Positions 179 through 6,227 of a stretch of 41,887 nt of DNA are shown here, piece after piece. Made by a program: the position numbers and the translations under genes. This stretch comes from Steroidobacteraceae bacterium (GTDB taxonomy: Bacteria > Pseudomonadota > Gammaproteobacteria > Steroidobacterales > Steroidobacteraceae). Within the stretch, counting starts at the first letter, position 1. Each line of letters begins with the position of its first letter. The notes beneath the pieces are model-generated. The model was not told where the DNA came from and ran no database searches. It saw only the letters and a program-made list of their open reading frames with translations. The stretch spans positions 1 through 41,887 of the forward strand of contig JAGOXN010000002.1 in assembly GCA_018059685.1 (NCBI GenBank). The letters run 5' to 3'.

Positions 179-796
179 ATGGACGACCTCACCCCGCGCC
201 AGCGTCAGGTCCTGCGTTTCATCCAGGATGCCGTGCTCCAGCATGGCATGCCGCCCACGCGCGCCGAGATCGCCGAGGCGCTCGGCTTCAAGTCCGCGAA
301 TGCGGCCGAGGACCACCTGCGTGCCTTGCAGCGCAAGGGCGTGCTCGAGATCAGGCCCGGCGCCTCGCGCGGCATCGTGCTCAGGGATTCCCTGCGCGAG
401 CAGCTGGGCCTGCCGCTCATCGGCCGCGTCGCCGCCGGCCGTCCCATCCTCGCCGAGGAGAACATCGAGGCGCACTACCAGATCGATCCGCAACTCTTCC
501 AGCCGCGGCCGCACTACCTGCTCAAGGTACGCGGCATGAGCATGAAGAATGCCGGCATCCTCGACGGTGACCTCGTCGCGGTGCACCGCACGCCCGAGGT
601 ACGCAATCGCCAGATCGTCGTGGCGCGCCTCGAGAACGAGGTGACGGTGAAGCGTTACCGGCAGGAGGGCGCGGTGGTGTGGCTGCTGCCCGAGAACCAG
701 GACTTCGAACCCCTGCGCGTCGACCTGAAGCACGAGTCGCTGATCATCGAGGGCGTGGTTGTGGGCGTGGTGCGACAGGAGGCGGGCCGGGCGTGA
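179..796 (+). CDS. lexA: LexA, SOS repressor / self-cleaving protease
   Basis: LexA represses SOS genes and inactivates itself when RecA filaments form on damaged DNA. The 205-residue product starts [12 protein letters not shown], with the winged-helix DNA-binding domain at about residues 1-70. The cleavage bond is Ala86-Gly87. The S24-type protease dyad is Ser121 (in RGMSMKNAG) and Lys158 (in VTVKRY), spaced 37 residues as in E. coli Ser119/Lys156. The frame is open from an upstream TTG at 152, but that lies inside the SOS boxes; ATG 179 has GGAG at the right distance and gives the family N-terminus. It is first in an operon with imuA (16-base gap), imuB and dnaE2, so it should control its own operon. 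Confidence 0.97.
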
Positions 797-812
797 CCAC
801 CGGCGCATCGCC

Positions 813-1451
813 ATGGCCTTCGACGACCTGCTGCGCCACCCGGCGCTCTGGCGAGCCTGTGAACGGGACGGGGCGACCCACGCACCCGGGTTGTCCACCG
901 GTTTCGCCGCGCTCGACCGCTGCCTGCCGGGTGGCGGCTGGCCACGGCAGGGGCTGGTCGAAATCCTCACGGATCGCTACGGCATCGGCGAGCTGAGCCT
1001 GTTGATGCCCGCGCTCGCCGCGCTGTGCGGCACCGGGCAGGACGGTGGCTGGCTTGCCTGGGTATCCCCGCCTTACCAGCCTTATGCACCGGCGCTGGCG
1101 GCGTGCGGCATCGACGTGCGCCGGCTGCTCGTCGTGCGTGCACAGCCTGCCGAATGGGCCATGGAGCAGGCACTGCGCTCGGGTGCCTGCGATGCCGTGC
1201 TCGGCTGGGCGGCCTTCCGCGATTCCAGGGCGCTGCGCCGGTTGCAGCTCGCCGCCGGGCAGGCACGGTGTCTCGCCGTGATCTTCCGGCAATTACACGC
1301 GGCCGGGGAGCCGTCGCCGGCCGTGTTGCGCCTCGCGCTCGGAGTCGGTCAACGCGGTCTCGAGGTGCGCATCCTGAAGAGCCGCGGCGGACGGGTGACG
1401 AGCGTGTGGCTCGGTGGACTCGCCACGGCGACGCAAGCGCTCGCGCACTGA
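813..1451 (+). CDS. imuA: ImuA, translesion-synthesis accessory protein
   Basis: This 212-residue protein is a RecA/SulA-like member of the mutasome. ImuA is thought to interact with ImuB and RecA to help the error-prone polymerase DnaE2 act at lesions. The N-terminal part has the family pattern LSTGFAALDRCLPGGGWPRQGLVEI (about residues 27-51), which resembles the RecA-core entry but lacks a proper Walker A GxxxxGKT, as is usual for ImuA. ATG 813 gives the expected MAFDDLLRHPALW start; the frame is open further upstream but that would overlap lexA. It sits 16 bases after lexA and 2 bases before imuB, so the genes are almost certainly co-transcribed under LexA control. Confidence 0.9.
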   Translation: MAFDDLLRHPALWRACERDGATHAPGLSTGFAALDRCLPGGGWPRQGLVEILTDRYGIGELSLLMPALAALCGTGQDGGWLAWVSPPYQPYAPALAACGIDVRRLLVVRAQPAEWAMEQALRSGACDAVLGWAAFRDSRALRRLQLAAGQARCLAVIFRQLHAAGEPSPAVLRLALGVGQRGLEVRILKSRGGRVTSVWLGGLATATQALAH

Positions 1452-1453
1452 CC

Positions 1454-3118
1454 ATGTCGTCGCGCAGGCCGCAGCGGGCGCAGCCCGCAGTCCTTCCGTC
1501 ACTCGTCTCCGAGCGACCCGGTCTCCGGGTTGCAAAAGGCAACGGATGCCGCGACGGCGTGCCGGCACGCGCGAGTGACGAACTGTGGCTCGCGGTGCAC
1601 CTGCCGCATTACGTGCTCGAGTCGCTGCACCGGCCGGGCGTGCACGGGAATGAGGCTGTTGCGCGCGCCGGCTGCGTGGCGAGCGTGGTCGTGGACATCG
1701 AGCGGCAGGGCAAGGTGGTCTGCGCCTGCGATGCCGCGGCCGCGGCGGCCGGCATCGCGCCCGGCATGGCGATCAATTCCGCGCTCGCGCTCGCACCCGC
1801 GCTGCGCGTGCTGGCCCGCGAAGCGCATAGCGAACGTGCGCTGCTCGAGGCGGTCGCGGTGACCATGTCGGAGTTCACTCCGCGTGTCGTCCTCGAGCGG
1901 CCCGATGAGGTCCTGCTCGAAGTGCGCGGCAGCCTGCGGCTGTTCGGCGGTGTGCGGCGACTGTGCGCGCAGGTGCGCGCGCGGCTCGAGTCCCTCGGCG
2001 TCCAATCGCGACTCGCGCTCACTCCCACGCCGCTCGCCGCGCTCTGGTTCGCGCGCACGGGCGAGGAGGTGGCACTGCGCCGTGTGGACGAGCTCCCGGG
2101 CCGTCTTGCACCGCTGCCGCTCGAGTGCACGCGCTGGCCGGCACGCAGCCTGCAGTCGCTTGCGACCATGGGCGTGCGCACCGTCGGTGATTGCCTGCGC
2201 CTGCCGCGCGACGGCTTCGCGCGCCGTTTCGAACCGGGCCTCCTGCGTTCGCTCGATCGCGCCGTTGGTCGCGTGCCCGATCCGCGCGCGACCTTCGTGC
2301 CCGGCGAACGGTTCGTGGCGCGCCGCGACCTCGAGCCCGAACTTGCCGACGCCGGACAGCTCGGCCGCGTGGTCGAGCCGCTGCTCGTGGAGCTGTGCGC
2401 ATTCCTGCAGCGGAGAGGGCAGGGCGTGCAGATGCTCGAACTGCGGCTCGAGCATCGCGAGGCACCCGTCACGAAGCTGCGGTTGCGGTTCGTCGAGCCG
2501 GTGGCCCAGGCGCGGCGGATCGCCGGACTGCTGGATGAGCGACTTGCCCGCGTGGTGCTGCCGGAGCCGGTGCGCGCCCTCGGGTTGCGCAGCGGGCGGC
2601 TGGCCGAGGTGCGCGAGCATTCCGTGGATCTCTTCGCGCTGGATCGACGTCGCTCGTCGGGCGTGCCACAGCTCGTCGAGCGCCTGCGCGCACGCCTCGG
2701 CGCGGAGGCCGTGCAGGGGGTCGGCATCGTTCCGGAGCATCGACCCGAGTCGGCCTGGCGTATCGCCGAGCCCGGAAGAGGGGGAAAAGGGGACATTCAG
2801 ATTTTTGACGAAGCTCTTCGTCAAAAATCGGAACGTCAAAAATCGGAACGTCAAAAATCTGAATGTCCCCTTTTCCCCCTCTTCCGTCCGCTGTGGTTGC
2901 TCGCCGAGCCGCAACTGCTCGGTGGCGATGAACGACCCCGCTACGAAGGCGTGCTCGAGATCGAAGAGGGTCCCGAGCGCATCGAATCGGGCTGGTGGGA
3001 CGGCCACGACGTCAGGCGTGATTACTACGTGGCGCGCACGCAGGCCGGTGTGCGGCTCTGGGTGTTCCGCGAACGCACGCCGGAGCGTCGCTGGTTCCTG
3101 CACGGCATCTTCGGCTGA
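1454..3118 (+). CDS. imuB: ImuB, catalytically inactive Y-family polymerase homologue
   Basis: ImuB is the Y-family-like hub of the mutasome. It lacks polymerase activity but recruits DnaE2 and ImuA to the beta sliding clamp. The 554-residue product keeps the Y-family fold ([13 protein letters not shown] near residue 52; [11 protein letters not shown] near 158) but lacks the N-terminal catalytic acidic motif of active Pol IV/V. The segment HSVDLFAL (about residues 392-399) resembles a clamp-binding motif. The C-terminus [17 protein letters not shown]...[10 protein letters not shown] is typical of the family. ATG 1454 follows the imuA stop by 2 bases. Unusually, residues about 440-478, between AWRIAEPG and RPLWLLAEP, are encoded by a 114-bp palindromic element (2773-2886) inserted in frame, giving three RQKSE repeats. 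Function may be retained because the insertion is in a linker before the C-terminal part. Confidence 0.93.
2773..2886. repeat. palindromic insertion element inside imuB (38-bp perfect inverted arms)
   Basis: The left arm, 2773-2810, is the exact reverse complement of the right arm, 2849-2886 (38 of 38 bases). The arms start CGGAAGAGGG and end CCCTCTTCCG. The 38-base centre holds part of a 15-bp tandem repeat. A second, nested hairpin (2800-2813 with 2816-2829, 14 bp, 2-base loop) competes with the outer stem. Homopolymer-rich blocks (GGGGGAAAAGGGG, ATTTTT) contrast with the surrounding GC-rich coding DNA. The total of 114 bp is 38 codons, so imuB stays open. This looks like a non-autonomous palindromic mobile element of the kind mobilised by REP-associated Y1 transposases; that assignment is inference, since no transposase lies in the window. 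Confidence 0.85.
2819..2863 (+). repeat. three tandem 15-bp repeats within the imuB element
   Basis: CGTCAAAAATCGGAA occurs at 2819-2833 and 2834-2848, and CGTCAAAAATCTGAA at 2849-2863. The unit is a multiple of three, so copy-number changes keep the imuB frame and add or remove one RQKSE block. Each copy contains CGTCAAAAATC, able to pair with GATTTTTGACG at 2800-2810. Confidence 0.9.
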
Positions 3119-3125
3119 GCGGCCG

Positions 3126-6100
3126 ATGAGCTACGCCGAGCTCCATTGCCTCAGCAACTTCAGCTTCCTGCGCGGCGCCTCGCATCCGGAGGAACTGGTC
3201 GGGCGCGCGGCTGACTCGGACTATGTCGCGCTCGCCATCACCGACGAGTGCTCGGTCGCCGGTGTCGTCCGCGCACACGTGGCGGCGCGCGACCGGAAGT
3301 TCAAGCTGATCGTCGGCAGCGAGTTCCGCCTCGCGGACGACCTGCGTTGCGTGCTCCTCGCCACGAGTCGCCGCGGCTATGGACAGCTCTGCAGGCTCGT
3401 GACGCGCGCGCGTCGCGCGGCCACCAAGGGACAGTACCGGCTCGTCCGCGACGATTTTCTCGCGCAAGCAGCGGGCGAAGGGGCGGGGGAGGGGTCGTCC
3501 CTGTCCGACTGCCTCGCACTCTGGCTGCCAGGCCTCGGGCCGGATTCCGCCGAGGCGTCCTGGCTCGCCTCGATCTTTCCCGGCCGCCTGTGGATCGCCG
3601 TGGAGCTGCTCACCACCGGCCACGACCGCCGTCGCCTCGCGACCCTGCAGCAGCTGGGACGCGCGCTCGGCCTGCCGCTTGTGGCCGCGGGCGACGTGCA
3701 CATGCACGTGCGCGGCCGGCGCGCGCTGCAGGACGTGCTCACGGCGACGCGGCTTCGCACGACCGTCGACCGGGCGGGATACGCCTTGCATCCGAACGGC
3801 GAGCGGCACCTGCGGCCGCTCGCCCGCCTGCAGGAACTCTATCCGCGCGAACTGCTCGAGGCGACGCTCGACATCGCGGGGCGCTGCGCGTTCTCGCTGG
3901 ACGAACTGCGCTATGAGTATCCCCGCGAGATCGTGCCCGAGGGGGAAACGGCCGCGAGCTGGCTCGGCAAGCTCACGCGGGAAGGCGAGCGCCGGCGCTG
4001 GCCGGCGGGAACGCCAACGCAGGTCGCGCAGGCCGTCGCGCGCGAGCTCGCGCTCATCGCCGAGCTGCGCTACGAGGCGTACTTCCTCACCGTGCACGAC
4101 ATCGTCAACTACGCACGCTCGCGCGACATCCTCTGCCAGGGCCGCGGCTCGGCGGCCAACTCGGCCGTGTGCTACTGCCTCGGTATCACCGAGGTCGATC
4201 CCGCACGCATGTCGTTACTCTTCGAGCGGTTCATCTCGCGCGAGCGCAACGAGCCGCCCGACATCGACGTGGACTTCGAGCACGAGCGGCGCGAGGAAGT
4301 GATCCAGTACGTCTACGCGAAGTACGGCCGGCATCGCGCGGCCCTTACGGCGACCGTGATCTGCTACCGGCCGCGCAGTGCGTTGCGCGACGTCGCGAGG
4401 GCGCTCGGCCTCGACCCGCTGCAGGTGAACGCGCTCGCGCGTTCGATGCAGTGGTGGGACGGCTCGAGCATCGACGAGGGGCGCGTGCGCGAGGCGGGCC
4501 TCGATCCGGCAAGCCCGGTGCTCGCCCGGGTGATCGCCCTCGCCCGCGCGCTGCTCGGCTTCCCGCGGCACCTCTCGCAGCACGTGGGCGGTTTCGTCAT
4601 CGCACGCGACCTGCTCGAGGAACTCGTGCCCGTGGAGAACGCGGCGATGCCGGAGCGCACCGTCATCCAGTGGGACAAGGATGACCTCGACGCGCTCGGC
4701 CTCCTCAAGGTCGACCTGCTCGGGCTCGGCATGCTCGCGGCCATCCGTCGCAGCTTCGACCTCATCGAGGGTCTCGGCGGACCGCGCTTGACGCTCGCGA
4801 CGGTGCCCGCCGAGGACCCGGCCGTGTACGAGATGATCGGCCACGGCGACACCATGGGCGTGTTCCAGATCGAGTCGCGCGCGCAGATGGCGATGCTGCC
4901 ACGCCTGAAGCCCGCCACGTACTACGACCTCGTGATCGAGGTGGCCATCATCCGTCCCGGACCGATCCAGGGCGACATGGTGCACCCGTACTTGAGGCGC
5001 CGCGCCGGCCTCGAACCCGTCACCTACCCCAGTCCCGAGGTCGAGGGGGTGCTGAATCGCACGCTCGGCGTGCCGATCTTCCAGGAGCAGGTGATGCAGC
5101 TTGCGGTCGTCGCCGCGGGCTTCACGCCCGGCGAGGCGGACCAGCTGCGCCGCGCCATGGCCGCGTGGAAGCGCAAGGGGGGCTTGAGCCACTTCGAGGA
5201 GCGGCTCATCCGCGGCATGCGGGAGCGTGGCTACGCCGAGGAATTCGCGCAGCAGATCTTCCGGCAGATCCTCGGCTTCGGCGAGTACGGCTTTCCCGAG
5301 TCGCACGCCGCGAGCTTCGCGCTGCTCGTCTACGTCTCGGCCTGGCTCAAGCGTCACGAGCCCGCGGCCTTCGCCGCGGCGCTGATCAACAGCCAGCCGA
5401 TGGGGTTCTATGCACCGTCGCAGCTCGTGCAGGACGCGCGCCGGCACGGGGTCGAGGTGCGGCCGGTAGATGCGCGGGTGAGCCAGTGGGACTGCACCCT
5501 CGAGCGGTGTGCGGACGGCGGTGCGGCGCTGCGCCTCGGCCTGCGCCTGGTGAAGGGCCTGTCACGGGCCGCCGCGGAGCGGCTGGTCACGGCGAGGCAG
5601 GCGGCGGAATTCCCGGGCGTGCAGGAACTCGCCGGACGCGCGCGGCTCGACCGCCGCGAACTCGGCTGCCTCGCCGCCGCTGGTGCGCTCGAGGGACTCG
5701 CGGGGCATCGCCACCGCGCGGCCTGGAACGTCGCCGGCATCGAGGCGCCCCTGCCGCTCATGCCGCAGCCGCGCATCGCGGAAGGCATCCCGCTGCTGCG
5801 GGCGCCGCGCGAGGGCGAGGACATCGTGGCCGATTACGCCCACGCGGGGCTCACGCTGCGACGCCATCCGCTCGCCCTGCTGCGCGCGCGACTCGACCAG
5901 CGCCGCATCGTGACCGCGGCACGGCTGCGCGAGTTGCCTGACGGCTCGACGGTGCGCACGGCGGGGCTCGTGATCACGCGCCAGCGGCCAGGCAGCGCCA
6001 TGGGCGTCACCTTCGTGACGCTCGAGGACGAGACCGGCCATGTGAATCTCATCGTCTGGCGCGACGTGGCCGAGCGCCAGCGGCAGGCGCTCATCGCCTC

Positions 6101-6227
6101 GCGCCTGATGGGCGTGGCGGGAAAACTGCAACTCGAGGGCGAGGTGCTGCACGTGATCGTGCACCGGATCGTGGACCTCTCGCGCTGGCTCGGGCGGGTC
6201 GCGGCGCCGTCCCGCGATTTCCACTGA
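3126..6227 (+). CDS. dnaE2: DnaE2, error-prone DNA polymerase III alpha-type subunit
   Basis: DnaE2 is the C-family polymerase of the ImuA-ImuB-DnaE2 mutasome and performs mutagenic translesion synthesis during SOS. The 1033-residue length is typical for DnaE2 and shorter than replicative DnaE (about 1160). The PHP domain opens with [22 protein letters not shown]. The palm carries [14 protein letters not shown] with Asp379, Asp381 and Asp383, followed by the fingers with [14 protein letters not shown] and [22 protein letters not shown]. The C-terminal OB-fold is around [32 protein letters not shown]. The frame is open far upstream through the shadow of imuB; ATG 3126, 7 bases after the imuB stop, gives the standard MSYAELH start. 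Last gene of the lexA operon. Confidence 0.97.

Follow-up and report, generated by a model that had tools for sequence, protein, structure and literature searches.

The imuB gene of this Steroidobacteraceae genome carries, in frame, a palindromic segment (positions 2773-2886, unstranded) with perfect 38-bp arms, and this segment is an insertion belonging to a dispersed family of repeats. It is very probably a non-autonomous REPIN-like element, consisting of inverted terminal repeats of a Y1 (HUH) transposase, of the RAYT/TIRYT type, with no gene between them. The element itself belongs, as a variant, to a known kind of repeat; the part worth pursuing is that such palindromes recur in one linker of a mutasome protein. 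The sequence-only reading had taken the segment for an insertion and not for native imuB sequence, and this is borne out by many further copies in the genome and by the lack of the segment in distant ImuB proteins, the empty imuB site being known from protein-level comparison only.

Within the window, i.e. the whole stretch of 41,887 nucleotides that was analysed, imuB occupies 1583-3118 on the forward strand and encodes a Y-family-like mutasome protein; position 1583 marks the onset of conserved sequence, not a settled start codon. An imuA-like gene with a weak RecA match, under the Pfam cut-off, lies upstream (759-1451, forward strand), and dnaE2, encoding an error-prone DNA polymerase of the III alpha type, follows downstream (3126-6227, forward strand), which is the standard gene order for a mutasome. 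The imuB gene is intact on both sides of the palindrome. In a comparison of 30 relatives, the stretch from the HRPE block to RPLWLL proved to be a linker that is hypervariable in both length and sequence; among 73 wider ImuB homologues, it is commonly ~19 residues by script count and of unrelated sequence. AlphaFold, run on 24 sequences, gave pLDDT values of 44-61 at residues 391-440, inside which the insertion falls, and of >80 over most of ImuB. A linker between RecA-NT and ImuB-C has been described in mycobacterial ImuB (PMC11791113), and from the order of motifs we read the insertion site as its counterpart. A different route of linker growth was seen at locus L372 (G081), where the ImuB linker consists of imperfect tandem repeats of the GPSQ type (KGPGQGPGQGPSKGPSQGSSQGPSQGP) and is free of GGGGACA.

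At all 38 of 38 positions, the arm 2773-2810 is the reverse complement of the arm 2849-2886, as the sequence-only reading had stated, and the chance expectation for such repeats in a 41.9-kb window of the same GC content is ~5e-15. As a single strand, the segment folds with z-scores of -12.7 (DNA) and -13.9 (RNA). Each arm contains a half-site: on the left AAAAGGGGACATTCAGATTTTTGACG (2785-2810, forward strand), the AGA dialect of the GGGGACATTCNNNTTTT family, and on the right its exact reverse complement (2849-2874, reverse strand). Since the usual element in this genome, GGGGACATTCNNNTTTTCG...CGAAAANNNGAATGTCCCC, is shorter than the imuB copy, each arm has an extra outer layer of 12 nt (CGGAAGAGGGGG, 2773-2784, pairing with 2875-2886), a palindromic extension past the usual element, and the imuB copy is palindromic for 16 nt beyond the GGGG. 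At its end, the right arm runs for 3 nt (CCG) into codons of the conserved RPLWLL coding block, so the true insertion probably falls a few bases short of 114. The earlier claim of an in-frame insertion of exactly 38 codons thus stands as to the 114 bp being stop-free in the imuB frame, but probably not as to the exact length. Moreover, this stop-free reading is weak evidence, because one of the two other forward frames is likewise open across the 114 bp.

The interior architecture described in the same reading was recovered in full. Three 15-bp tandem units (2819-2833, 2834-2848 and 2849-2863, forward strand), of sequence CGTCAAAAATCGGAA, CGTCAAAAATCGGAA and CGTCAAAAATCTGAA, encode RQKSE repeats, with units 1 and 2 identical and unit 3 differing by one base, and a nested 14-bp hairpin uses the left arm (2800-2829, with arms 2800-2813 and 2816-2829). 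The interior can be accounted for by a simple palindrome of 52 nt, GGGGACATTCAGATTTTTGACGAAGCTCTTCGTCAAAAATCTGAATGTCCCC, with two additional 15-bp units on the right arm, and the nested hairpin with its flanking half-sites is likely the ancestral simple palindrome, as we reconstruct it. A BLAST search of the 114 bp against plasmids returned no match.

The window's own draft genome (G000, a MAG that is 84.8% complete) contains 94 exact copies of the core half-site GGGGACATTC (48 forward and 46 reverse; none for the reversed control), mainly as intergenic inverted pairs that are often nested. The GGGGACATTCNNNTTTT family numbers 76 copies in G000, 33 in G002 and 45 in G026, and is missing from most of 60 relatives. 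Other genomes use dialects of their own, with the tag GGGGACA present in every dialect read. The G000 copies are inverted GGGGACATTCNNNTTTTCG pairs in which NNN differs among copies and is usually the same within the arms of one copy; that is, both arms of an element change in concert. In G000, 31 of 39 pairs had concordant variable parts, where random pairing would give 7.2; in G018 the figure was 51 of 57 pairs, with 12.4 expected. Concordance was scarcely above expectation in G002 (8 of 16, with 6.8 expected) and G026 (12 of 19, with 10.6 expected), because dialect diversity is low there. Nineteen inner nested pairs were seen, the majority symmetric across the junction, and some copies are palindromic for 14-38 nt past the GGGG. 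G018 is a single contig whose 174 half-sites fall into two dialects, TGCC and GATC. Pairs of GATC lie within pairs of TGCC there; the reverse order was absent among the elements read. Tandem duplication of the right half, on one side only, was found at L153, L145 and L173 (the uvrA copy), which fits slippage at a hairpin.

Several further arrangements were encountered among these copies. A longer class of the family, with elements of ~260 bp, occurs in G018 in both orientations; its three representatives (L347, 1471-1740; L353, 1487-1745; and L354, 1466-1730) have in common the conserved interior sequence AAAACG[AG]GGCGTGAAGCGAAAAGCCCC.... At L346, L355 and L356 of the same genome, GGGGACAGATCT palindromes sit inside an apparently different palindromic repeat (GTGCCGGGTG...). 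At L170 (1480-1604, contig C417 of G000), the final codons and stop of the upstream open frame (CGCAATAAGAAATAG) recur in inverted form beyond the element. Contigs C289 and C290 of G000 and C34 of G002 stop at an element or a very short distance from one; it is therefore probable that the repeats interrupt the assembly, and they may conceal a transposase gene.

Relatives that have a family of this kind also have transposase genes with matching half-sites on their flanks. PF01797 genes with matching flanks of the local dialect were found in four genomes (G018, G026, G061 and G067). The flanks are direct copies in G026 and inverted in G061, and G018 has two transposase genes and two dialects, TGCC and GATC, with each gene flanked by inverted half-sites. 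One-sided or variant flanks occur in G005 and G001; the one-sided flank in G005, GGGGACATTCTCCTATTTTT, is close in sequence to that genome's imuB copy, GGGGACATTCTCCTGTTTT. The flanked proteins score above the cut-off for PF01797 and reach 66-80 bits against NF047646, the NCBI model for REP-associated tyrosine transposases, which leaves them slightly short of the cut-off of 80. The HUH motif (NHFH/NHVH) and the catalytic-tyrosine motif (YVERN/YVDQN) are present in the transposase translations, and, at E 0.001, Pfam matched no C-terminal helix-turn-helix of the Bac_DnaA_C, HTH_23 or HTH_28 type in the flanked proteins. GGGGACA does not flank the longer transposases of the HLNP type that belong to the same family (L109, L110 and L124). 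The resemblance to REP-associated Y1 palindromes proposed from the sequence alone therefore holds for the link to Y1_Tnp genes, seen in relatives through like half-sites, but not for the tag, which is GGGGACA and not GTAG.

As to how such a family might arise, spread would proceed via the transposase acting on folded single-stranded DNA, and new copies would often land at, or grow from, hairpin tips, producing nested and outward-extended palindromes. Template-switching at hairpins may keep the arms identical, and slippage on a hairpin arm may have produced the 15-bp units. Against the transposase-repeat explanation, no Y1_Tnp gene was found in G000 even with a lax cut-off, though this MAG is incomplete and several contigs end at these repeats; the transposase gene of G002 has no exact half-site alongside it in the DNA examined; and the arm concordance in G002 and G026 barely exceeds that expected. 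For canonical REPs, the mechanism of dissemination is likewise unproven (PMC8266576). Two other identities for the segment were considered. Native imuB coding sequence that is palindromic by accident would account for a segment that is in frame in a gene intact on either side; it is refuted by the copies dispersed through the genome, the absence from most relatives' imuB and the negligible probability of such an inverted repeat by chance, and we give it practically no weight. A structured RNA or transcription terminator overlapping imuB by accident is suggested by the very stable RNA fold (-73.8 kcal/mol), but Rfam yields only sub-threshold matches, to long-hairpin microRNA families, the position is mid-gene with the downstream part of imuB and dnaE2 intact, and such DNA arms are found in many unrelated contexts, all of which make this identity highly improbable.

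Palindromes of this kind are not confined to one imuB gene. In the family and order, 4 of 58 distinct ImuB linkers contain in-frame GGGGACA palindromes, with arms of 21-55 bp (G000, G002, G005 and G018), as compared to none of 264 equal-length control segments from the same genes, where the longest arm was 13. In the remaining linkers, the sole arm >13 bp is a GC-rich 14-bp pair in L271 that lacks GGGGACA. In the ImuB tree, G000, G002 and G005 form one clade (94/90) and G018, of a different genus, lies apart, a grouping that implies at least two origins of the linker palindromes. By eye, the linkers of G110, G100, G061 and G039 resemble decayed copies and are possibly decayed remnants. Among 80 ImuB loci from named genomes there was one insertion, the same as that of G005 (L192, WAS_Bin_33), so the linker pattern is confined to genomes dense in these repeats.

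Genic copies are rare overall: ~132 of 136 sampled elements lie outside any coding frame, and 4 of the ~136, sampled from four genomes, are in frame within genes, namely imuB in G000 and G018, uvrA in G000 and pbpC in G018. These counts come from a codon-usage frame test trained on two genes, which may miss others, and from a G018 catalogue holding roughly half to two thirds of the half-sites, among the matches listed. The catalogue also undercounts, because the dialect of the G002 imuB copy escaped the search pattern and that copy was found only via imuB. The in-frame uvrA copy (L173, 1495-1596, contig C445 of G000) lies between the LSGGEAQRLKLA and DEPTTGLHF blocks, and the penicillin-binding protein 1C gene (pbpC) has an in-frame GGGGACATGCC palindrome (L175, 1494-1550, G018); judging from motif knowledge, both presumably occupy short variable stretches.

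Why imuB should be affected repeatedly can be explained in several ways. The leading account is still neutral tolerance, which concerns the choice of imuB and is compatible with the identity of the element as a Y1 repeat: the linker would be a tolerant landing strip for in-frame insertions that fall at random, are not targeted and leave ImuB unaffected. We consider this reasonably probable, given that the linker is hypervariable from one relative to the next and modelled with little order, and that the uvrA and pbpC copies also lie in what we judge to be short variable stretches. In its favour, Di Nocera et al. (2013; PMC3733652) also allow for REPs being neutral where they sit in flexible linkers. 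However, disordered linkers are common, yet imuB accounts for 2 of the 4 sampled genic insertions and is affected in 4 of the 5 dense-family genomes examined. Given the G000 case, the probability of imuB being among the three other genic insertions is ~0.002 under a length-proportional null (~1.6 kb in 2.7 Mb, by our own arithmetic), a figure weakened by gene-to-gene differences in tolerance. A plausible, if not favoured, account for part of the pattern is a single old insertion in the common ancestor of G000, G002 and G005, whose sequence was later replaced in situ as it underwent conversion or template switching involving other copies. Their grouping in one clade and the identical reading phase of the first GGG GAC ATT in all three agree with this, but the dialect and right-hand flank differ among them, the distance from the HRPE block is ~10, 4 and 1 residues, respectively, and G018 is separate regardless.

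A preference for repair and mutagenesis genes, through single-stranded DNA and damage-linked transcription, a target motif, or selection for altered activity, seems to us unlikely, although both the imuB copies of four genomes and the uvrA copy of G000 would fit. The pattern echoes a published excess of REPs in repair genes: unrelated GTAG/CGTC families are overrepresented in uvrABCD, recBCD, polA and dnaE2, and the authors doubted that this was fortuitous (PMC3733652). However, the events are few and were spotted post hoc, pbpC is not a repair gene, and the copies in G000, G002 and G005 may derive from one ancestral insertion. More doubtful still is the fuller proposal that RAYT-type palindromes repeatedly enter the ImuB linker and repair genes by targeting or selection, altering hinge length and thereby tuning induced mutagenesis; if true, mobile palindromes would adjust the hinge length of the mutasome, here also in 5-codon steps. 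REP-like palindromes were reported in 2013 to be oddly frequent inside replication and repair genes, and the present case is a separate one, involving another repeat family and another mutasome gene, with the same short linker affected in at least two lineages. The imuB linker offers a definite place for distinguishing neutral tolerance from target choice and from selection on the mutasome. In addition, the GGGGACA palindromes are tied to their transposases by the dialects they share, in one genome by two dialects for two transposases.

The elements share features with several known systems. Like canonical REPs and REPINs, they are high in copy number, mostly intergenic, arranged as inverted pairs and matched to a Y1 transposase, with occasional in-frame genic copies, uvrA and dnaE2 included (PMC3733652). 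Unlike them, there is no GT[AG]G at the hairpin foot, and the half-site is a long terminal repeat instead of a single short hairpin. The Rickettsia palindromic elements are similar in being ~150-bp palindromes in frame in many proteins (PMC10969869), but belong to another lineage and are almost half genic, as compared to ~3% of sampled copies here. MITEs also have two terminal inverted repeats, no intervening gene and a dispersed distribution; in contrast, no target-site duplication was recognised by eye in the flanks here, and a subset of copies has palindromic flanks. In the literature searched on GGGGACA with RAYT, no paper names the motif other than the GGGGWSAS report, which describes the TIRtron inverted repeats of TIRYT transposases (Di Nocera et al. 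2013, PMC3733652). Quentin et al. (2018, PMC6006769) discuss them as probably belonging to TnpA-Y1 subclass 2.1, a subclass described with a C-terminal helix-turn-helix domain. The flanked transposases here are ~220-230 aa, with a YVERNA or YVDQNP motif and no helix-turn-helix Pfam match; because that tail was not found, we do not assign the elements to subclass 2.1. The copies here also differ from TIRYT repeats in being nested, near-perfect palindromes. Nevertheless, the closest published kind that they resemble is the GGGGWSAS-flanked TIRYT. The motif is fitted exactly by the GGGGACAG of G018, whereas GGGGACAT, which represents most dialects here, is one base off, matching 7 of 8 positions. 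As with TIRYTs, GGGG-tagged inverted repeats flank a Y1 gene (in the relatives G018, for two genes, and G061, with direct repeats in G026) and recur elsewhere as dimers or clusters.
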